Source: Mesodorylaimus sp. YZB2_4
Lineage: Eukaryota; Nematoda; Enoplea; Dorylaimida; Dorylaimidae
DNA length: 64,000 nucleotides
Assembly (NCBI GenBank): GCA_030248295.1
Contig: JASANH010000781.1
Location: 186,001-250,000 of the forward strand
Direction: 5' to 3'
In this document: one piece after another, positions 15,991-63,403 of the stretch
Layout: every line of letters begins with the position of its first letter
Numbering within the stretch: the first letter of the stretch is position 1
Made by a program: the position numbers and the translations under genes
The notes under the pieces: model-generated
What the model saw: the letters and a program-made list of their open reading frames with translations, nothing else
The model's database searches: none
Told to the model about the DNA's origin: nothing

Positions 15991-17043
15991 ATGCTACTCT
16001 TCAGCTTTATTGCATCCATGCTAGCCGTGACTGTAACTGGCCGCACACCCCGTCAGTGCCGTTCGGTTGGCGATAAATGGGTCGCGGATAAAATCAAATA
16101 TGTCTGCTCTGAAGAAGGAGATGCGTTGAAGGCCAAACCAGTGGGTAGGAGAAAACATTTTTTTGAGAATGCAAGTTTTAAGAGGTGGTTTCTTGCTTTG
16201 TTCAGCATGTATTCTTAGTGGTCGAGAATACGGCCCTAATGACCAATGGACAAGCTCTACTTTCAAATTCGAATGCAAACCTACCGAAGATGGTGGCTTG
16301 ACGGTCAATGTGCTGAGTAAGTGCTGAAGCGAATGTAAAATTCGAAGCGGTCCGTTCAGCGTCCATTTTCGCACAGCATAATCAAAACAAGGCCTAGTGT
16401 GCTATAGAGTGTTTTAGCGACGCCCGCGGGAAATTCGAAAGATCAAGCTGCTAAAAACTGTGAATTGGTTTATTGGGTGGATGATGTGTGTAATTGATTT
16501 TTTAGCATGCCTTTCACCCAAGGGTGAAGAGCTTGCCATTGGCCAATCAGTAATTGCCTCTAATAATCGTAACAGAGGTCGTTTCCAATGCATCAAAAAA
16601 GCCAATGGCTGGGTGACACGCAAATTCCAACCTGGCTGCGTTTTCAACGGCACGTTCTACCAACCAGGTCGAACTTGGTTCTCTGGAAATACCAGTCTCA
16701 CTTGCCTCCGATTAAGAAACAAGAAACAACACGAAGTTAGAGCTACAGGTAGAAAAAAATTAAAAAATTTGCAGTGTTTCCAAAATTGCTGTGGAAATAT
16801 GATTTTAGCTTGCAAAGCTGAAGAAAATGTGTGGGTGGCAGTTGACTCATATTATGAAGATGTCGCGACAAACAAACATTTTAAGTGCGAACGAAGCAAA
16901 GAAGAATCTACTGGTGCCATACTGGTGCCAGCTGATGGTAAGTTGTCATCAATTCTTGTGATTAATTTTTAATTCATGATAATTTTTTAGCACTAAGCTA
17001 CAACAGATGGTTCAAACCATTTGCTGATGCTCAAGAAAATTGA
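15991..17043 (+). CDS. MIG-18-like secreted protein with fibronectin-I-type modules
   Basis: Exons 15991-16144, 16206-16316, 16506-16748, 16809-16937 and 16991-17043 join in frame (229 residues); all four introns are phase 1. A signal peptide (MLLFSFIASMLAVTVTG) comes first. Repeated small modules follow the pattern Cys...Gly/Trp...aromatic-x-Cys. Examples are QCRSVGDKWVADKIKYVC in exon 1, CILSGREYGPNDQW...FEC in exon 2, two modules in exon 3 and CKAEENVW...FKC in exon 4. This pattern is that of the nematode family annotated as abnormal cell migration protein 18-like fibronectin type I domain proteins, extracellular proteins linked to basement membrane and cell migration. The phase-1 introns fit module shuffling. 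The tail (ALSYNRWFKPFADAQEN) has no cysteine. Family assignment is from pattern, not alignment. Confidence 0.7.
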
Positions 17044-17867: not shown

Positions 17868-18183
17868 ATGGCGTCTAAGCTTGTTTCTGCTATTATTTTT
17901 TTCTCATGTTTGCAAATCTTGATTTATCAGAACCCTGTCTCCGCCAGAATCAGATTATCGGATCGATTATTCTATCGCGGATACAATAACCAAGCACGCG
18001 GCAATGAGTAACTGAGGTTTTTTGATGTCATCCCATCACGAGTGTCCTTTCTTTAGATTTTCGAAAGATGACAATGATCAACGCTATCAAGCACCATCAC
18101 TGGTGGAAAAACTGAAGGGCAGTGGAAGAAAAAATTCATTGTGTCATTTAAGCCCTGTTCAGTGTCTGTTGTTGAAGAAGTGA
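17868..18183 (+). CDS. Secreted precursor of a Cys-x6-Cys ring peptide, allatostatin-C/somatostatin-like in design
   Basis: Two exons: 17868-18007 and 18057-18183, joined by a 49-base intron (donor GTAACT, acceptor CTTTCTTTAG, phase 2). They make an 88-residue precursor. The N terminus is a strong signal peptide (SAIIFFSCLQILIYQNPVSA). A spacer rich in Arg, Asn and Asp follows (LFYRGYNNQARGNEFSKDD), then Gly-Arg-Lys, then NSLCHLSPVQCLLL, Lys-Lys and stop. Two cysteines six residues apart at the C terminus, after a basic site and with Pro inside the ring, match the layout of allatostatin-C peptides (insect ring CYFNPISC). Such peptides act through somatostatin-type GPCRs. Without the intron, exon 1 alone would read a 47-residue secreted peptide ending at 18011. 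The weak donor and lack of transcript data limit confidence. It has the same architecture as the genes at 25060 and 26622. Confidence 0.6.
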
Positions 18184-20009: not shown

Positions 20010-21512
20010 TCAGACATTCCCCTTTCCCACATCCACACTCTCCTCTTCTGCATGGCCGGATGGCTGATTCTCACTTGCGCATTCTTCAATCTCGAATAAT
20101 TGTCTCTCCAATGTTGTGCAAGTATTAAAATTCGGATCGATATCAAATTGGTTTGCTGTTTTTGCACTCGACTGTCCTCGAAGTGATCTATTAATTTTTG
20201 ATCGCCTTCTTCGCTGTCCAAAATCAGAATCACGTGCGCTGCGCGGAGCCACATCCATCGATCGATCGCCAATCACCGAAGCACCTTCGGTACAGATGAC
20301 AAAATCACGGTACATAGCCGCACAAAGGACCATACATATCAGTAAGAGTATAGTTTTCGCGATCGCCAAATATTGACAAATTATTCTGCCATAAGCAGCT
20401 GCTACATAAATTCTAGATTCGCATGGCATCGATTCATAACATGCCGTTGATCGATTTCCGATCAATCGATAATTTTCAAAATTTTCACAACAAGAAAGAG
20501 GGAACGGTAATAAATCTTTTTGTTGCTTATTTTTTTCTAATTCTTTTTGAATCCACCATTTTGATTTCATCCAATCACCCACTTTCGTGAACCCGCAACA
20601 TCGACCCGATTGTTGAATATCATCAACAAATTGAGTCCCCATTTTTGCGTCTAAATCTCCATATTCATATTCCAAAATAATTTTAAAAAATTCTTTCAAA
20701 TATGAAATCGCTTTGCGTTCGCTGATAAAAAGTGTACAAACGCCAGTAAATGTCATTAAGAAATCGACAAATACAAATCGCATATAATATCGAAAATAAC
20801 CACATTGACATATTAGACCAGAAACAAATATTAGAACGCTCATTCCATCCAAACAAGATGACGATGCCATCAACAGCATGCCACTCATCGGATAGGAGCC
20901 GACATCGAAATTAGTTTGACGTATTTTACTCACATCAGCCACTCGAAAATCAGCATTTTGAAAATCGATAATTATCAAATAGACGAAAATTGATGCTAAC
21001 GCTAATTTGGTAATGAGTAAAAATAAAAGTGAAAAAAATTTTTTCTTCGATCGTCTAATTATTCTTTCAATACCTAATTCTCGTTTTTGTCGAAGTAAGA
21101 GTAATCGTCGTACTGCCTTACCTCGATGTAATTTTTTACTTTTCACGGAGCTAACGCTCTGATTATCCGCATTTGAGGATCGTTTTCGATTGATTGATCG
21201 ATTTTTTGGTCGATCAAATGTTAAGTCTCGATTATTATTGATTTTTTGAACTTTTTCTTCAGTTTGTACTAAAATTTCTGGCGAAGCAAAAAACACTGGT
21301 GGGCTATCTTTATTAGCCATGACCACTGGCGAGTAATCGTGGGTGCTGAGTCGAGCAGCTGCATTAGCTCGAACTGGTATAAATTCACCGCCTGATTGTT
21401 TTCTCCGAATTGATCCAGATGATTTCTTGCGACTGGGAGATTTAGTTACAGATTTTTCGCTGGATAAACTAGCATTGGAAAGTGATCTCACTTTTTGTGG
21501 TGATGAAGACAT
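20010..21512 (-). CDS. Intronless tetraspanin with long basic N-terminal extension
   Basis: A 500-residue open frame. The first 150 residues are Ser/Lys/Arg-rich and cytoplasmic, with repeats of SRKKSSGSIRRKQSGG type. Four hydrophobic segments follow: one near 160-182 (FFSLLFLLITKLALASIFVY), one near 210-240, one near 245-265 and the last near 385-405 (AIAKTILLLICMVLCAAMY). Between segments 3 and 4 lies a large loop with the tetraspanin signature CCG (GRCCGFTKVGDW). Further cysteines are LSCCENF, ACYES and PCES. Tetraspanins organise membrane microdomains. The usual length is 200-300 residues, so the extended N and C termini are unusual. A minus-strand AATAAA lies near 19856. No intron is needed, which could reflect retroposition or a lineage trait. 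Confidence 0.85.
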   Translation of the reverse strand: MSSSPQKVRSLSNASLSSEKSVTKSPSRKKSSGSIRRKQSGGEFIPVRANAAARLSTHDYSPVVMANKDSPPVFFASPEILVQTEEKVQKINNNRDLTFDRPKNRSINRKRSSNADNQSVSSVKSKKLHRGKAVRRLLLLRQKRELGIERIIRRSKKKFFSLLFLLITKLALASIFVYLIIIDFQNADFRVADVSKIRQTNFDVGSYPMSGMLLMASSSCLDGMSVLIFVSGLICQCGYFRYYMRFVFVDFLMTFTGVCTLFISERKAISYLKEFFKIILEYEYGDLDAKMGTQFVDDIQQSGRCCGFTKVGDWMKSKWWIQKELEKNKQQKDLLPFPLSCCENFENYRLIGNRSTACYESMPCESRIYVAAAYGRIICQYLAIAKTILLLICMVLCAAMYRDFVICTEGASVIGDRSMDVAPRSARDSDFGQRRRRSKINRSLRGQSSAKTANQFDIDPNFNTCTTLERQLFEIEECASENQPSGHAEEESVDVGKGNV

Positions 21513-22340
21513 TTTTCCAAAAGACCGCCAACGCCTAGACTAGGCTGTCCGAGTGAGCGAATTAACGAATGCAAAAGAATCAAGAAAATACGCGCACTAG
21601 GGGACCTCGGGTCTAATCGTAAGCATAAATGGCCAGGCAAAACTGACGGGATTAGAAAAACCAATCAATTTGAGCTCTATTCAATGGCTGAATTGAATCT
21701 TATTCAATTAGGCCTCATTGCTCCATGCCAAGTCGTGGATGCGACTAACAATGACTCCGTTCTACTTGCACGAAAAAGAAGCTGACTGTGCTTTTTTTCA
21801 GCTGCAACAAACTTTCAGCTGCCCAGAAAATAAATTGTTCTGTGATGGCCAATCAATGAAGTCGTGGCAAACTTTTTTCGTATTATCAGGTACCTACGAT
21901 CAGAGAGAAGATTTCAGATACCTAAGCCCCCCCCCCCCCACCCCCTGCGCGACGGGGCGCGATGGATTCAAGGCTCACATTGCAGCCTAGGAGAAGCATC
22001 GTCGATCTGTGACTTTGTGATGTGATTGTGTTCCCCTTTTATGCGTTGTTTGCTTCCCTGTGGTTCACTCTTCGTTTCTGTCGCAGACCAGAGTGGTCCC
22101 TTCTTATCTTTGTCCATAAAGACAGTGTCTGTGTCGAAGTCGAAGTGTCGAACGAAGTCTGTGTTATACTCACTGTCAGTCTCTCATCGTCGGCCGACCT
22201 GCGCAGGAGGTCCGCTCATTCTCTCTTTTATTCTACGCTTCCACAACGCCGCTCTCGCTACAGCTAGTGGACAAAGTATGATTTGACGACATGGCTAGGC
22301 TATACTCATACCCTTTCTCTGATCCCCGCCACTCCCATGT
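21513..22340. other. Intergenic with poly-C tract
   Basis: No gene supported. A poly-C run lies at about 21929-21944. Confidence 0.4.
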
Positions 22341-25059: not shown

Positions 25060-25313
25060 TCATCCCAGGCGGGCGCAATTGGTCACACTGATGTAGCACT
25101 TGAGGATGCTACTGGGCTTTACTAGTATCTTCTTGCCCTTGATGGCCTCCTTGTTGGCTAAAGGGACTCTGCTAGAAAGGACAGATGTTCTAGTTCTGGG
25201 CCATTCTGACAAGAAATTGCTTACCCCTTGGCCTTATCGTCCACCTTTCCCGCTGCTTCGCCAGAGAGCGACGTCAGAATCAAGCAGGCCACGAGCACTG
25301 CGATCAGATTCAT
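25060..25313 (-). CDS. Secreted precursor of a Cys-x6-Cys ring peptide, duplicate copy 1
   Basis: Exons 25313-25225 and 25171-25060, separated by a 53-base intron (GTAAGC...CTTTCTAG, phase 2), encode 66 residues. The signal peptide is MNLIAVLVACLILTSLSGEA. A Lys-rich spacer with a GKK cleavage site follows, then ILVKPSSILKCYISVTNC and Ala-Arg-Leu-Gly stop. The two cysteines enclose six residues (YISVTN), as in allatostatin-C rings. The final Gly directly before the stop could serve for amidation, giving ...ARL-amide. Intron phase and size match the ring-peptide gene at 17868, so the two are probably paralogous. The nearest earlier AG gives an immediate stop, which supports the CTTTCTAG acceptor. 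Alternative view: a generic small secreted peptide unrelated to allatostatin-C. Confidence 0.62.
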
Positions 25314-25345
25314 TTCTTGCCGTCGGTGTCGAGTTGGGGACAAAA

Positions 25346-25377
25346 ACTGACCGGAGCATGCGCTCGTCCCGTTTATG
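25346..25377 (-). promoter_or_regulatory. Degenerate TATA and initiator of ring-peptide copy 1
   Basis: On the minus strand CATAAAC lies about 29 bases before TCAGT (25350-25346), in the same places as the clear TATA/initiator pair of copy 2. The leader to the ATG would be about 35 bases. Confidence 0.4.
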
Positions 25378-25394
25378 TGCTCTCTCTGACTATA

Positions 25395-26030
25395 ATTATG
25401 CATTTTGGCACGATCAGCTCGAACGTGAGCTAAGGTATTTCTCGATGTATCGATGCAATTGGCGTCCAATCAGCGGCAATACCTGGGATTTCCACATGAC
25501 GTCGTAGTCTGTTGATTGCAAGTTGAGATCACTGGTCTTCTACCACTGGGTTTCGGCGCGAAATAACATCGCGATCAAATGTTGCGGACGCGCATTACGA
25601 GTTCTGGTGCTGGCAAGATCTCGCGATGTTTGCCACGCGCCAAAACGGTTAGTGATCGGAAATCTGGTATGTCGGATTGTTTGATATTAGAGCCACCAAA
25701 AGACGCTATTCTACATGCGATTCGTCTCAATCATTCTTCCCAAAGTGCATCTATCTGTAAGCACGCCTTGCTTGATTCTGAGATCACTTATAGAAGAGGC
25801 AGGCAATAAGGTAACGGCTTCTGCTTGCTTGTCGCATGTTGGCATCATAAGTTGCTGACTACATGGCCATACATGCAGGCCATTTATCACGTCCACCATC
25901 GTCAGTAAATGTCGCCGTGTGCGCAAGAATATCCTTTTGACATTTCGCATGTCCAGGACGTTCTCGCCCGTTCTATATTCGTGTGCAGCTGGGTCAAATT
26001 ACGAGTAGGGTACATACAGATGTGGGGAGT
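25395..26030. repeat. Right arm of the inverted duplication
   Basis: Reverse-complement partner of 22872-23502. It covers the upstream region of ring-peptide copy 1. A more diverged direct copy of part of it (CATGCGATTCGTCTC block) lies at about 27170-27300, upstream of copy 2. Confidence 0.8.
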
Positions 26031-26621
26031 AGGGATAGTCAGGCTAGTTCGAACAGCTTTTGGCGCCAGCATGTATTGGCTCCAGAATTGGCGCAGAAGA
26101 AAGGTAAATACAAGCAGTAACGGCAACTTTGCGAGGCAAGATGAGGGACAAAGCGCCTTGACCTTGAATGACCTTCTTGAGTCGACCACCGATTTGTCAC
26201 AGCCTGCAGTCATGCGTAGACGGCAGAACAAAGTTACGTAAATCCAAACGTGCAGATAATCGATTGGTATTTTAACAAAAGAGAAGAAAATACAATGGCG
26301 AATGTCACCCTGTCTACTTGACAAATCGACACCTATACGCCAAAAGACACCAAGTGTCGAAATATCAGTTTCGAGAAAGCAAAGCTCAAAGTTTTGGCTT
26401 CTGAGTGACATGCAAAGCGCGCGAACCAAAGTGCTGATTATGGTGGATGTGAGTCCGGCCATCTTTAATTTTTGTGCGGCCATGACAGCGACAGAACGTG
26501 AGGTGATGGCACTACCAAGTGGCCACAAAACAGAGATACAGTACAGATACGTCCATGGTCAAGCAGAGTAGTCGGTTTTGGGAAAAATCCGTCACAGCTC
26601 ATGTCATCTCTGAACATTCCG

Positions 26622-26875
26622 TCATCCCAGGCGGGCGCAATTGGTCACACTGATGTAGCACTTGAGGATGCTACTGGGCTTTACTAGTATCTTCTTGCCC
26701 TTGATGGCCTCCTTGTTGGCTAAAGGGACTCTGCTAGAAAGGACAGATGTTCTAGTTCTGGGCCATTCTGACAAGAAATTGCTTACCCCTTGGCCTTATC
26801 GTCCACCTTTCGCGCTGCTTCGCCAGAGAGCGACGTCAGAATCAAGCAGGCCACGAGCACTGCGATCAGATTCAT
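26622..26875 (-). CDS. Secreted precursor of a Cys-x6-Cys ring peptide, duplicate copy 2
   Basis: Exons 26875-26787 and 26733-26622 with the same 53-base intron. It is 1562 bases from copy 1 and almost identical to it. The only coding change seen is Gly to Arg at residue 22 (EAAGK to EAARK), just after the signal peptide. The ring part (LKCYISVTNCARLG) is unchanged. Unit homology runs from about 24925/26485 to beyond 25365/26927, so the gene was duplicated as a tandem segment. The two copies then differ completely beyond the core promoter, and may be expressed differently. Confidence 0.62.
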
Positions 26876-47300: not shown

Positions 47301-50300
47301 TTTGCGATAGGCACGACCGTCTGCCTTCGGCTCGCCATATATTCCCGGGTTTGTCTCTCAAATTCAGGACAATTCGAACGGATCCCCCCTCCATCGAGCG
47401 TACATTAAAATTTGCCAGCAGGAAAGTCAGATCATGAACATTTTTCAAAAATTTGAACACAGCATCCCAAAAATTATGCATCGAATGCACGCACATGTAA
47501 GGATAATTTCGATTGTAAATTTTCCCGCCTTTTTAAGATTAAAATTTTTTCTGAAATATTTTTGCGTTTTTTTCAACGAAAGCATGGACTAATGATTTCT
47601 GAGGCGATGAATCCCAAAAACTTACCGTCTCCACTTCTTGTTTCGTTATTGTAGGTGCCATATTTCTCAAAAATATACTAGCCGTTTTATGCAACCACAT
47701 TTGCGGTTGACCACTCTTCGAAGACGGACTACGCGATCGACCATGTTTCTCGTCGTTTATTGACGAACGACGAGCAGGTGACATGGATTTAGTAGTATCG
47801 CGTCGATTGGCTGCTTCTTCAGTCGACGAACGGAAGCCTTGTTGAATCGGAGCAGGTATCGATTCGCCCTCATTGGGCGGTACCACATTCGGCTGATCGT
47901 CGATACTCGATCGCTCGCCAAGTTCTCCTTCGACGCTCGCAGGCGGAGATCGAACTGACGATTTGCCTAAAATCACACATTTAACATTTTCTGTTTCCTT
48001 CAAATGACAGAAACTTCATCCAAATTTCCACTTATTGACCTAAAATTGCATAAGATTTTGTCGGAATCCTTTGACGCCCACCTCAGTGCTAATTACTCAG
48101 GCGGGTAACACCTAAAAACCGTTTTTATAGCACGCGTAAGTTAAGAAGAATAAACATTACGAATTTATTCTTCTCCAGAACACAAGCGTGCTGCACTCTT
48201 CCCCCTCCCCCCCAATTCAGACATACTTACTCGACCGAACCGATCCTTTGTCCGACATTTCACCATCCTAAAAATCAAAACAATTTTTAACCTCCAACCA
48301 TCAAATTCTCCTTCCATAACTTCTCAGACAATCATATCAGATTATCGCTTCTCAATTGTCCCCAAGCAGGGCTAGTGCTTTCGGACTGGGATAACTGGCA
48401 AAGCTTGTTTTATCATCATTCTTATCTCAATTTTACCCAATCTAGATAACTCTGAAAAATAAAAATAAACATACGCTTAACGCCTCTTCTTCGCCATCTT
48501 TCGCCTTCCTCGTCGTCTTCTTCGATTCCCATTCCCCCAATTCACCGTCCCCTTCATTCTCTTTCTTCGTCCTGCCATCCTCATCGCCCGATTGATGACG
48601 TTCCGACGACTCCCTAAAATAGAGAGAATCAAATAAGACCTAGCAAAAAAAGTCCTGATTCACCGTTTTTCTCGTTTGGACTGTCAACTAGGTCATTTTA
48701 TTTCGAATCAGTCAGTTCTGTCATTTCTACATTGCCTTTTCAGACAGGGATAACTGGTCATCATTTCCAAATCCCCTCTGCCCCCCAAGACTATAAGTAA
48801 TCAAAACATGACTTACGCCTCTCTCGACCTCTTTTGTGGTCTCTCTTCGGATTCGTCATCGCCTCTTCTAGTCGATTCCCTCGATCCTTGTCGAGCCTCT
48901 CGTTCCCTCGATTCCGTCTGCTCATCACCATACGATCGACCGTGTTGATTCGATTCGTCATCCTCGATATCTTCCATTTTTTCCAATAGTGCCAAATCCT
49001 CATCCGTGCCGCCTTCTAATTTCACGACAACTAAAAACACAAAATTGCACCTGTAATTTTCTGAAATAATTTTGCTCCTTGTTTTGACTGAAAACATTGA
49101 CTGGTGATTTATGAGGAGGGTTGTCCTGCCCTTTCCCTATGCTCATCCGAAATCGAATCAGTAACACTGCTTATCCACAATAAAATTCAGACAGGGATAA
49201 CTTGTGTCATCATTTTCAATTTCTACGGCACACGCATTGAAGGCACATTTCGTGGATTCTGCCTGCTCATAAGCGTCGGTTAGAAACAGGCCAGACTCCA
49301 CCTGAGCCACCTCCCAAAAGCATCTTCATCACCGGGGGTCGAACCCTAGACAAGCCTTGCGACCATGGTGGCACAAGACTTACGGGCATCCATTAACTTG
49401 ATTAAATGCCTTCCATTCGTGTGTTCCATGGACGCCTTATCGATCCACCCTTTCGCCATCAATTCTTGAAATACTTCTAATCGTCTTCGCACAGCCGCTT
49501 GTTGTTCTTGCTTCTTTTTCGCACTCTCTTCAGGATGATATTTTAATCGAAACCTCAAAAAAATTTCACAAACTTTTTATTTACTTTGTACAAATTCTCC
49601 TATTTTACCAAAAACCTAAACCGAATCCCAACAAATTTTCTTTTTGCATGATCCAAAAAAGAGGCAACTCGAACCTCGATGAAAAGAAAAGCTACAGCAA
49701 AATCCAAGAATAGCATATTCCAACATAGATTTGTATCTTACCTCAACCATATGCTTATCAGATTTTCACGCAGCCACGGTTAGAAAGAACCATGAACTGG
49801 CCACACACATGATTCGTGTATGCATATTTTAAAGATAAATGTATAAGTAGCTTTCTGACTAATGTCTCCCGTAAGCCGCGGCATAATACGCCTCTGGCCA
49901 GTCTTGTGAGTCTTGTTTGTCAAAAGCAAAGGAAAAATCATATGCCAAATGTAAAAAACCAAGAAATTTTTCTCAGCGCTGATATAAGTAAAGCATTTTC
50001 AGAAGACGTGAAGCAGATATTTTTGTCTTTCGCAGCATATTTTTTATAGAAACATAAAGGAACAATGGTAGCCCTCCTTACGACAGCGGATGCAGCGGCC
50101 GATATCAGAGATCTTATATAAAGAAAAGATGGTATTCTTTGATCAAAGAGCCGCATAAAAGAAGATATATCCATTAACCGATATAGAAAAAAGACGGTTT
50201 GATATTTTTGCGTCATTCTCGCGCTAGAAGTCGATAAAAAGTTGTTATTTATACTGTATACATACGAAATCTTAAGATTTAAGATGCTAAAACCTTAAGA

Positions 50301-55137: not shown

Positions 55138-55246
55138 TCATCCTCTCTTTTCAAAGACCAGGCTTTGTCTGTTGGCATTTCCAAAAGGCGCTCCAAGAAC
55201 TTCTCGCTTCGGCTAGCTATCACTGTGGATCCCTCCGAGTTTCATC

Positions 55247-56188
55247 ATGAACACAAGCGGAATCGACAACATTTCTTTGTCTTCCCTATCCCAACAAGCA
55301 TCCACTCATTTGTCATGGATTATCTTATCCCCCATATCCGTTTTATCCAATTCTCTCCTCATTCTGACAATCCTTCGTTCCAAAGAATTACACTCGAAAA
55401 GTTGTTTTGTTATGTTGAGCCATAGCGTATCCGAAGCATATCTAGCTTCGACCTACTTTGCCACTGGTCTCAGTCGCTACATACCCTACTTGTCCAACAC
55501 GCCAGTAACCACCACTCAGCTGATTTGTATCCTTCGAACCCAACCCATTGGTCTTGGCTCGACTTTGGTTCAAGAATTTACATTTTGTTTAGCCCTGGAT
55601 CGTTTTCTGTGCATCAGGGCACCCGTATTTTATCGTACCAAAAGTACCCAACAGTATTTATTTCTTATCAATTCTTGTTGTTGGGGGCTTGCAATTATTC
55701 AGCACATGTTTTTATTTTTGAAATATAATCCCGACAAATATTTGCCCATTTGTAATGCGGCAATCAGTTTTGATGCTACTTATATGCAAGTAGCCACAAT
55801 TCTAGGCAATGTCACTCGGGCTCTCACATTTCTTCTTTATCTCTTGGCAGCTTCAATGATGTTTGTTCGATACAGAAAAGCCAATTTGGTTGGCGAAAGT
55901 CAAAAGAGCGAATGGAGGATAGAAATCGAGTATCATATATTCGTTGCTATGACAACTGTAGGCATAATATACTTGTTGACTTATGTTGGCCCAACTGTCC
56001 TCAATTCTTTGACTGCTTTTGATCCGACCATAAAAAATGTCGTAAAATATATCCCCATCAGTACTACGTTATATATGTTAAGTGGCATGTCACATTTTCT
56101 AGTGTATTTAAAACTAAATTCTACGTTTAGAATGTGTTTTAAACGGTTTTTATGTAAGGAAGAAAATAATGTAGTAGCATTGACATAG
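55247..56188 (+). CDS. Rhodopsin-like GPCR, nematode SRSX-type (intronless)
   Basis: A 313-residue open frame with seven hydrophobic segments. The first is near 22-42 (WIILSPISVLSNSLLILTIL, with the GN-like SN of helix 1). Helix 2 follows RSKELHSKSC. Helix 3 ends in LALDRFLCIRAP, an Asp-Arg-Phe form of the DRY motif. Later helices include SCCWGLAIIQHMFLFL, ALTFLLYLLAASMMF, a segment after EIEYHIF, and ISTTLYMLSGMSHFLVYL. An Asn glycosylation site (NTS/NIS) is at the N terminus. The short C-terminal tail begins after FRMCFKRFLC, a possible palmitoylation site. Size and layout fit the nematode SRSX/SRW-type receptors. The ligand is unknown. AATAAA at 56221 follows the stop by 33 bases. Assignment to a subfamily needs alignment. 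Confidence 0.82.
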   Translation: MNTSGIDNISLSSLSQQASTHLSWIILSPISVLSNSLLILTILRSKELHSKSCFVMLSHSVSEAYLASTYFATGLSRYIPYLSNTPVTTTQLICILRTQPIGLGSTLVQEFTFCLALDRFLCIRAPVFYRTKSTQQYLFLINSCCWGLAIIQHMFLFLKYNPDKYLPICNAAISFDATYMQVATILGNVTRALTFLLYLLAASMMFVRYRKANLVGESQKSEWRIEIEYHIFVAMTTVGIIYLLTYVGPTVLNSLTAFDPTIKNVVKYIPISTTLYMLSGMSHFLVYLKLNSTFRMCFKRFLCKEENNVVALT

Positions 56189-60588: not shown

Positions 60589-62352
60589 CTAAACACCAGA
60601 GCAGACTGTCCTGATTGACGATGTCGTAAAACGAAATCCGGACAGGACAGTGCTTATAAAAATGCACCTCGCCTTATCTCTCCTCTTTGATAAAGCAATG
60701 GCTGGGTGTGTTTTGATGGATGGAACCAGTGTGCAAGTCATCAAATGTCACCACGCGATAGATAAGGCGTATGACGGCAGCCAGGTCCCCTACGTGCATA
60801 TTTTACCTCTATACGACTGCCTGCAATAAATTCTTAAATGTCATGTTTTTGATGAAAGGATACAAAATTTAAATTTTACGCTCTCATGTTTTGAAACGCT
60901 GTGATAAGCTAAAGTTTTGTCCTGTTACCCCCGCTGGCAAAGCCTTCCGGCTTCTATAATAGGGCTGATAAGAAAATTAGCGGCGCATGCAAATTTGTCA
61001 AATGTTTTGAAAAGTATGCCATCATCCGCCGGATCAAGGGGGGGGGGCTCGCAACTTTGTGCTTTCGGACTAATACGGCAAACAGCAGAGCTAGCACGTG
61101 CACCAGGTTCAAGACACCTGCAGGCAGTTCCATGGCGGGGAGAATGTTCGAGATGTGAGTAAATTTGAGGGAATAGGATAAAACTTGCCGGCGAATTGTG
61201 TCCTCAGTCCTGCCATCATTACCGTGACCACAACTGCTGTTCATGGAATTCGCAGAAACATTACTGTAGTTTCTTGCCATTTTCACATTCCACTCAAGTA
61301 AACCAAGACACAGTTTTTGAAGCGTCAATTATTTGAATTTCCCGCGGGCGTCGCTTGGCACTCTATAGCACCTTGGCCCTTCTCCTCATTTCCCTGTGCG
61401 AAAAAAAAGGACAAAACGTAAGAGCATGTTTAAATTTGCTAAAACCAGTCATAAAGAATATTAATGTAGCGTACATTTTCTAATATTCGAGAAACCGTGA
61501 AATAATCCCTTTTAACACGACTCAAGACATTTCATCGAAGGCACATGTCGAGTCAAACAGCTGTGTGAGCAGAAAAATTATAAATCTAAACGGGCTAACT
61601 CAAGCGTTTATGAGCAGAAAGTACTGGGGAATTTCTACATGAGAGTATTGGTGCATGCTGCATGCATGGACCAAGAAAATCACAAGAAATCCTATAGCGT
61701 CTTGAATAAAAAATAATCTACATAAAACGTTTGAAAGATTCAAACTTCTAAACGTACAACGACTTGCTTAAAAAATCAAACTTTTTTATTCTTGGGTAGG
61801 TCTTGTGGTGGGCTTGGAATGCTGCGTCTTCTTTTATTTGCCCTCTACCTGTCGCTTGCACAAGATTCGGAGTGCCCAGAGGAATCTTTTGCGACAGCTA
61901 TGAGAGTTGTTGTATTAAAATTTTCCTCGAGGCAGCATCGAAGCTAACACTTTTTTCGATAGGCATTGACCTTCATGCGATTACCTGACAAGTTATCTCG
62001 AGTGTTGGTAAAGGTTTCTGTTAATTTATTTACATACAATAATTTTTATGATCTCGCAGACGCGGCAAGGCTTTTTATTTCGTTTTGCCGCTGCCATATA
62101 TGCTCAGATGAAAATATAATTTTTATACGCCCTGCCCATAGATTACCCATAGACTCTCTCACTTTTTACTCGAGCAAAAATTTCTCTCTTAGAAATGTTA
62201 TTACTTGCACCCTTTAATTCCAAATTACGCACGATCTCTAAACCCAGTTTGCATATTTCGAGAGAAATGTCAAATTCGTAGAGACATGCCAAAACGATGG
62301 CCATAAATGGGCAGAGAGTGCTAGTTCGTGGCAGTGTTCAAGGCTAATCGAA
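60589..62352. other. Intergenic, no gene recognised
   Basis: No EPS8 PTB-domain exon, no other gene. A poly-G run lies at about 61036-61044. Confidence 0.4.
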
Positions 62353-63403
62353 ATGTTCAACGTGTCAGACTTACAAGAACTTCAAGCTCTCCTCGAGCTC
62401 CTCTTGCATTCCACGCCAGCCGCATCGAACGAATGGTCCAAACGCGTTACAACGGCCAGCTTGTACGCAACTTTCGGCTCTTTGGACATCATGCTCAACA
62501 CGTTTCCCATCCTGCTCACCTTCTGCATCTGCGCAAGAAGTACGTGCACGTCATGGTGGCCAGTGTGTTGATGGGTGACCTCCTGACAAGTCTGGAATTC
62601 GTGTTTGGTCAAACCTACCACATCCTCTATGGCGAGCAACTCAATCAGATCGCGTGCCACGTGCTGGCTTTCATCACCAGCACGGCCGCCTTTTTCGAAT
62701 ACGTATGTCTTAGCATGCTGTCTATCAATCGATATATCTCTTTGTATTACACGCAACACTACGATAGGATCTATACCAGTCGTAACATATCACTCATGGT
62801 GCTGGGCAGTTGGGTCCAGGCCGCGTTGTCCCCCCTGGTGTTCTGGATAAGTGGCAGGTAGGCTTCGACGATGATAATCAGCACTGCTGCATAGCGGTCA
62901 AACACGAGCACGTAGGCTGGTCCATACTCTATTGGTTCACCATCATCATACCCCTGCTGACAATGTGCGATGGCACTGTCATCTTCTGCAATTATAAAGT
63001 TTACAAAAAAGTATCTGCACGCGCCACAGTTCTCACTTTAAAGAATAATGTGATACAACAAAATAAGGAGCTGCTTTATCATCTTTTCGCTGATATGTCC
63101 TTTCCGATTATTTTTCAAAAATCTTATCAACTGTCCAAATTCATTTTGGCTGATCGCACATCACTCGTGCACAAACGCATTTTCTCTTGTTTATACTTGG
63201 TCAATGCCTTTTTGCGTGGCTTGGCCACATTGACCATGTTACGCCCGTATAGGAATGCTGTCAGGCACATACTCACCTGCGGGTGGCTCAAATTTGGAGG
63301 CACCAATTTAGTCGCACCATCCGTTCAAACCGGGTCAGTGGGAAACAAAATGGGCGTGGGCCCCGCCATGCGTCTAGAGGTTCCGCGAAATGCTGCAAAA
63401 TGA
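62353..63403 (+). pseudogene. Rhodopsin-like GPCR broken by two frame shifts
   Basis: Three overlapping frames together give one receptor. Frame 1 from the ATG at 62353 holds the N terminus and helix 1 (GSLDIMLNTFPILLTF). A second frame, from about 62535 to 62861, holds helices 2-4 (VHVMVASVLMGDLLTSL, CLSMLSINRYISLYY with a possible NRY motif, LMVLGSWVQAALSPLVFWI). A third, from about 62860 to 63403, holds helices 5-7 (GWSILYWFTIIIPLLTM, LYLVNAFLRGLATLTML). Both breaks are equivalent to one missing base, near 62525-62540 and 62855-62866. No GT-AG intron fits either break. Protein-level layout is otherwise kept, so these are either recent disabling mutations or sequence errors in a live gene. 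It is distinct in sequence from the GPCR at 55247. Confidence 0.72.

Follow-up and report, generated by a model that had tools for sequence, protein, structure and literature searches.

A split gene for a probable allatostatin-C-like peptide, a divergent member of a nematode gene family estimated at about 100

At positions 17868-18183 on the forward strand of the window, a two-exon gene is predicted to encode a precursor of 88 amino acids with a hydrophobic leader, an Arg-Lys site and a terminal ring, CHLSPVQC. The window is the whole 64-kb stretch that was analysed and corresponds to positions 186001-250000 of contig C28. We suggest, with a probability of roughly 0.8, that this is a real prepropeptide gene of the nematode allatostatin-C-like (AstC-like) type within the somatostatin/AstC superfamily, and that it is divergent within its family, which comprises some 100 genes in the same genome. 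As far as the sequences tell, the gene is new and the size of its family is unusual, while the nematode AstC-like family as such is already known.

The spliced translation is MASKLVSAIIFFSCLQILIYQNPVSARIRLSDRLFYRGYNNQARGNEFSKDDNDQRYQAPSLVEKLKGSGRKNSLCHLSPVQCLLLKK, with the C-terminal end ...GSGRKNSLCHLSPVQCLLLKK, see Table 1. An earlier note on this DNA had proposed two exons separated by a 49-nt phase-2 intron, a dibasic Arg-Lys site before the ring and a locus with no long open frame. At the level of sequence all of this holds: the exons join across GT-AG borders into one open translation, the dibasic codons are in place, and the locus has stop-to-stop frames of 52 and 55 amino acids only. 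The donor, GA/GTAACT, agrees with the consensus at 5 of 8 positions and the acceptor is TTTCTTTAG. The leader was judged by its Kyte-Doolittle window score, which is 2.67, and is a putative signal peptide. The stop codon is found five residues downstream of the ring. In the 600 bases downstream of the gene there is no AATAAA, only the weaker variants AGTAAA (18232) and AATGAA (18254), and there is no Pfam match at E-values up to 0.1. The C. elegans-type SL1 sequence has no match in the window either, which says little.

Table 1. Positions of the parts of the gene model in the window
Feature	Position	Strand	Description	Basis
Exon 1	17868..18007	+	ATG, hydrophobic leader (residues ~1-26), spacer with RIRLSDRLFYRGYNNQARGN	translation
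Intron	18008..18056	+	49 nt, GT-AG, phase 2, within codon 47 of 88	
Exon 2	18057..18183	+	spacer, processing site, ring, stop	translation
Arg-Lys dibasic site	18127..18132	+	precedes NSLC	sequence; cleavage predicted
Predicted mature peptide	18133..18174	+	NSLCHLSPVQCLLL, C-terminal KK removed	predicted from dibasic site and terminal KK
Cys-x6-Cys ring	18142..18165 (C28:204142-204165)	+	CHLSPVQC	sequence

If the transcript is spliced as modelled, the hydrophobic leader would take the precursor into the secretory pathway and would then be removed. Cleavage after Arg-Lys and trimming of the terminal Lys-Lys would leave the peptide NSLCHLSPVQCLLL, in which the two cysteines may close a disulphide ring with the proline at the turn. 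The peptide could then be released from neurons or endocrine cells and act on a G protein-coupled receptor (GPCR) of the somatostatin/AstC type, presumably with a neuromodulatory effect.

The ring layout, Cys-x6-Cys with an internal proline, is of the allatostatin-C type, as had been proposed. The ring of insect allatostatin-C is CYFNPISC. The window gene has the same number of in-ring residues (six), the same place of the proline, a ring near the C-terminus and a phase-2 intron. However, it has LSP instead of FXP and QC instead of SC, and its model is without the N-terminal phase-0 intron. Elevenin, nematocin, CCAP and somatostatin were rejected as identities on the length of their rings, which differs from that of the window gene.

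Among nematodes, the AstC-like neuropeptide-like proteins have a signal peptide, for which the hydrophobic leader of the window gene is a candidate, and they resemble the window gene in the Cys-x6-Cys ring ending in (S/T)P(V/A)QC and a basic residue before the ring. According to the accessible part of the published survey, nlp-88 to nlp-91 share RNCFF(S/T)P(V/A)QC and nlp-92 to nlp-96 share (K/R)NC(F/Y)F (PMC8764417). The SPVQC of the window ring is identical to the former motif, whereas the start of the ring, KNSLCHL, fits neither RNCFF nor (K/R)NC(F/Y)F, with H-L for F-F and L-C for N-C. The earlier statement that the residues differ from known rings thus stands for H-L, which is unusual, but not for SPVQC, which fits the nematode motif as given in that part of the survey. 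Because the full motif is absent, membership in the nematode AstC-like group is based on how the ring ends, together with gene structure and paralogs. As regards structure, the AstC genes of D. melanogaster and C. elegans have a C-terminal phase-2 intron, and SS/AstC genes generally have a conserved N-terminal phase-0 intron, as described in PMC7536072. The window-gene model likewise has a phase-2 intron, within codon 47 of 88. The N-terminal phase-0 intron is absent from this predicted two-exon model, although the gene may have further introns.

Rings of this kind are numerous in the assembly, which was searched as a whole (145.1 Mb, 1067 contigs). Col_cuticle_N, which we take to be confined to nematodes, has 133 matches in it, so the assembly is that of a nematode, and the window itself matches Srsx and, barely above the cut-off, Fn1_2; the 14 control genomes without Col_cuticle_N look prokaryotic and are therefore a weak control. 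The pattern C-x-F-x-P-I-Q-C gave 81 matches against none in the reversed control, C-x-F-x-P-x-Q-C gave 136 against 18, and P-V-Q-C, in which the second base of codon 4 could be C or G, gave 51 against 16 in the reversed control. As many as 79 of the 81 P-I matches read C[FY]F[ST]PIQC although the pattern placed no constraint on codons 2 and 4; the other two, CFFLPIQC and CRFHPIQC, were excluded. From the P-V-Q-C matches 24 were dropped, ten on their reading frames (L017, L042-L050) and 14 on ring residues alone. Two of these ten, L047 and L050, have a stop right after the ring but were rejected for ring residues unlike the family (GHT and RYG, respectively), the L047 frame being 19 amino acids long.

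With 79 PI and 27 PV rings, the window gene among the latter, at least 106 rings were judged to belong to the AstC-like family. Adding at least seven PL, PN, PA, PT and PS rings among the 100 C-x-F-x-P-x-Q-C matches listed out of 136 raises this to at least 113 rings on 63 contigs, with seven on C45 and seven on C51. Ten of these rings come from contigs with numbers of 500 or higher and may be uncollapsed alleles. Reading frames were inspected at 69 of the other 112 loci (26 + 40 + 3), and 66 of them reach a stop codon no more than about 20 codons past the ring; in L076, L081 and L094 the fetched stretch ended earlier. About 100 genes is thus our estimate of the family size and does not mean that so many have been proven.

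The phase-2 intron is shared across this family. We took 4-kb stretches around 46 loci, namely each of the 26 PV paralogs plus the 20 other loci that come first in contig order, and a script chose the best combination of leader, intron and ring at each, ignoring phase and requiring a minimum leader. A model was obtained for 45 of the 46 (L018 and L020 with relaxed limits) and none for L065. The intron is in phase 2 in 39 models, in phase 1 in three (L019, L022, L069) and in phase 0 in three (L020, L027, L039); for L019 a phase-2 model scored equally in another run. Against an expectation of 1/3 the binomial probability of this excess is 1.9e-13, an overstated figure as many of the loci are tandem copies and hence not independent. 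The phase-2 introns span 45 to 1268 nt, with 17 of the 39 at most 66 nt long. The loci L100 and L101, with the ring CHFSPAQC, also have phase-2 introns (61 and 59 nt), and L102 gave no convincing model. The residues FFR before many spacers were rejected as a conserved peptide, being the acceptor TTTCAG read through in phase 2. Two further AstC-like genes, L067 (C28:263655) and L068 (C28:157563), lie on the same contig outside the window and represent another subfamily, FTRC[FY]FSP[IS]QCWFTP.

A ring-anchored view of 46 proteins (the 45 models and the window gene) shows where the ring is constrained. No protein departs from C, P, Q or C, places that were fixed by the search patterns; the choices of Y/F and S/T within the P-I pattern were left free. 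The first Cys is followed by Y or F in 44 of the 46 proteins and then by F in 42, and it is preceded by N in 38; leaders and spacers vary. The F kept in 42 proteins is that of FXP, the ring motif of AstC as given in the accessible text of PMC8851493. The window gene has H-L at the Y/F and F places and L-C in place of N-C.

The window gene has relatives that share some of its features. The pattern CH-SP-QC, with His at the first ring place, is common to the window gene, L100 and L101. A search for C-x-L-x-P-[VIM]-Q-C, with Leu encoded by TTR or CTR, yielded five matches, of which the window gene and L037 belong to the family. In exon 1, RIRLSDRLFY resembles IRLSDRLLY in exon 1 of L041, and of 1000 shuffled versions of residues 27-47 three scored as well against the family, in a test made post hoc when the likeness had already been noticed. 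Whole-protein BLAST among 48 proteins gave weak matches, the best with E-values of 2.5e-4 (L070) and 5.2e-4 (L041), and no paralog matching the exon-2 spacer. In summary of structure, L041, L040, L070, L100 and L101 are alike the window gene in leader, phase-2 intron and P-[VIA]-Q-C ring, and L070 also in its tail, CLLL. In contrast, spacers and the remaining leader align poorly, in a comparison that L100 and L101 lie outside. The suggestion of an undescribed AstC-family member is supported, in the form of a divergent new member, by SPVQC, the phase-2 family, exon 1 of L041 and the CH-SP-QC paralogs.

Judged by its own locus, the gene is only moderately unusual. Its combined leader and splice score of 20.7 ranks fourth of 44, itself included, among the Cys-x6-Cys motifs at most eight codons from a stop in the whole window. 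The three higher scorers are the two copies of another tandem peptide gene (25060-26875) and one motif that uses exon 1 of that gene, so this control is contaminated, and the best remaining motifs score 20.3 and 20.1. Such close scores are what one would see if unrelated frames had yielded a leader, splice sites and a Cys-x6-Cys stretch by chance, and the leader and splice score alone is not decisive. It is the family present in this genome, with its ring type, its phase-2 intron and one related exon 1, that places the gene above chance. Given this, together with the SPVQC match and the CH-SP-QC paralogs, a chance origin is highly improbable. It is unlikely, to a lesser degree, that the gene is a decaying copy, i.e. 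a family member by descent that drifted to H-L and lost N-C and makes no working peptide. CHLSPVQC occurs once among the 51 P-V-Q-C matches of the genome, in the window gene itself, the altered ring places are kept in 42 to 44 of the 46 proteins, and the spacer resembles none of the others. However, the frame, leader, splice sites, Arg-Lys site, both cysteines, proline, glutamine and the short tail ending in KK are all intact, the His is not private to this gene, and a related exon 1 has been kept in L041.

Another reading concerns the use of the family rather than its origin. With human SSTR2 as the query, 115 stretches of the genome matched at E-values up to 1e-5, many other peptide GPCRs among them. 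Four GPCR frames were compared with the PDB, and for three of them, L096 (first 167 residues), L097 and L098, somatostatin receptors are the best matches. L097 is 55% identical to L096, and for L098 mu-opioid receptors follow close behind. The frame L099 resembles L098. The top match of the SSTR2 search, L095, was rejected as a candidate, its nearest receptor being NPY2R. The genome thus contains putative somatostatin/AstC-type receptors, at C57:114060, C145:64069, C132:175560 and C53:396250, with which the present peptides may pair. For comparison, the somatostatin and galanin-like group of C. elegans comprised 24 receptors, for which no ligand had been identified as of 2012, according to PMC3527849.

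At least 106 rings stand against few frames nearest to somatostatin receptors, namely two that are 55% identical plus a second kind. It can be speculated that a set of about 100 exceeds the apparent need of the receptors and that the family expanded for use outside the nervous system, as secreted cyclic peptides against host, prey or microbes, a part of them directed, for example, at the AstC system of arthropods that serve as host or prey. How parasites and venoms mimic peptides has been reviewed (PMC12962067). We consider such external action quite unlikely, both for the family and for a part of it. The number of receptors may be higher, given that four GPCR frames were compared and 115 stretches match SSTR2, and the number of ligands need not equal that of receptors. 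Moreover, variation is found in leader and spacer but hardly in the ring, a pattern not known from diversified toxins. We favour an AstC-like prepropeptide gene whose product would act on a somatostatin/AstC-type GPCR.

Across nematodes, 16 AstC-like nlp genes have been named, seven earlier and nine new (four of these nine in C. elegans), and two clade 2 species have reduced nlp sets, according to the accessible part of the survey (McKay et al. 2022, PMC8764417). The present genome has about 100 such rings by our estimate. We found no report of an AstC-like set of such size in the open-licence PMC literature, represented mainly by titles and the beginnings of abstracts. If the count is right, this set is to our knowledge among the largest for one neuropeptide type, which would raise the question why a single ring stays conserved as the genes multiply. 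Short split peptide genes evade annotation, and the combination of ring motif and intron phase finds them.

The second split peptide gene of the window is present as near-identical tandem copies on the reverse strand (25060-25313 and 26622-26875), with a leader, a 53-nt phase-2 intron and a terminal ring, CYISVTNC, followed by ARLG. By tblastn, related stretches occur on C67, C11 and C91 as well as at other places on C28. It is possibly a distant arm of the AstC-like family without the proline.

Elsewhere in the genome, a 488-kb contig contains frames of the mitochondrial genes COX1 and ND4 next to a partial COX1 copy in inverted orientation (L051, C73:251816-256168), and COX1 pieces match on further contigs too; these frames are either nuclear copies or a mis-join. 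Upstream of the window gene, 16418-16969 (+) contains an Fn1_2 domain barely above the cut-off, and downstream 20010-21539 (-) is a frame of 509 amino acids with a tetraspanin match below the cut-off. Two GPCR-like regions, 55217-56188 (+) and 62325-63400 (+), match Srsx and 7tm_1 best, respectively, and 49151-49221 (-) matches the Rfam family snoR38 with 53.4 bits (cut-off 45).
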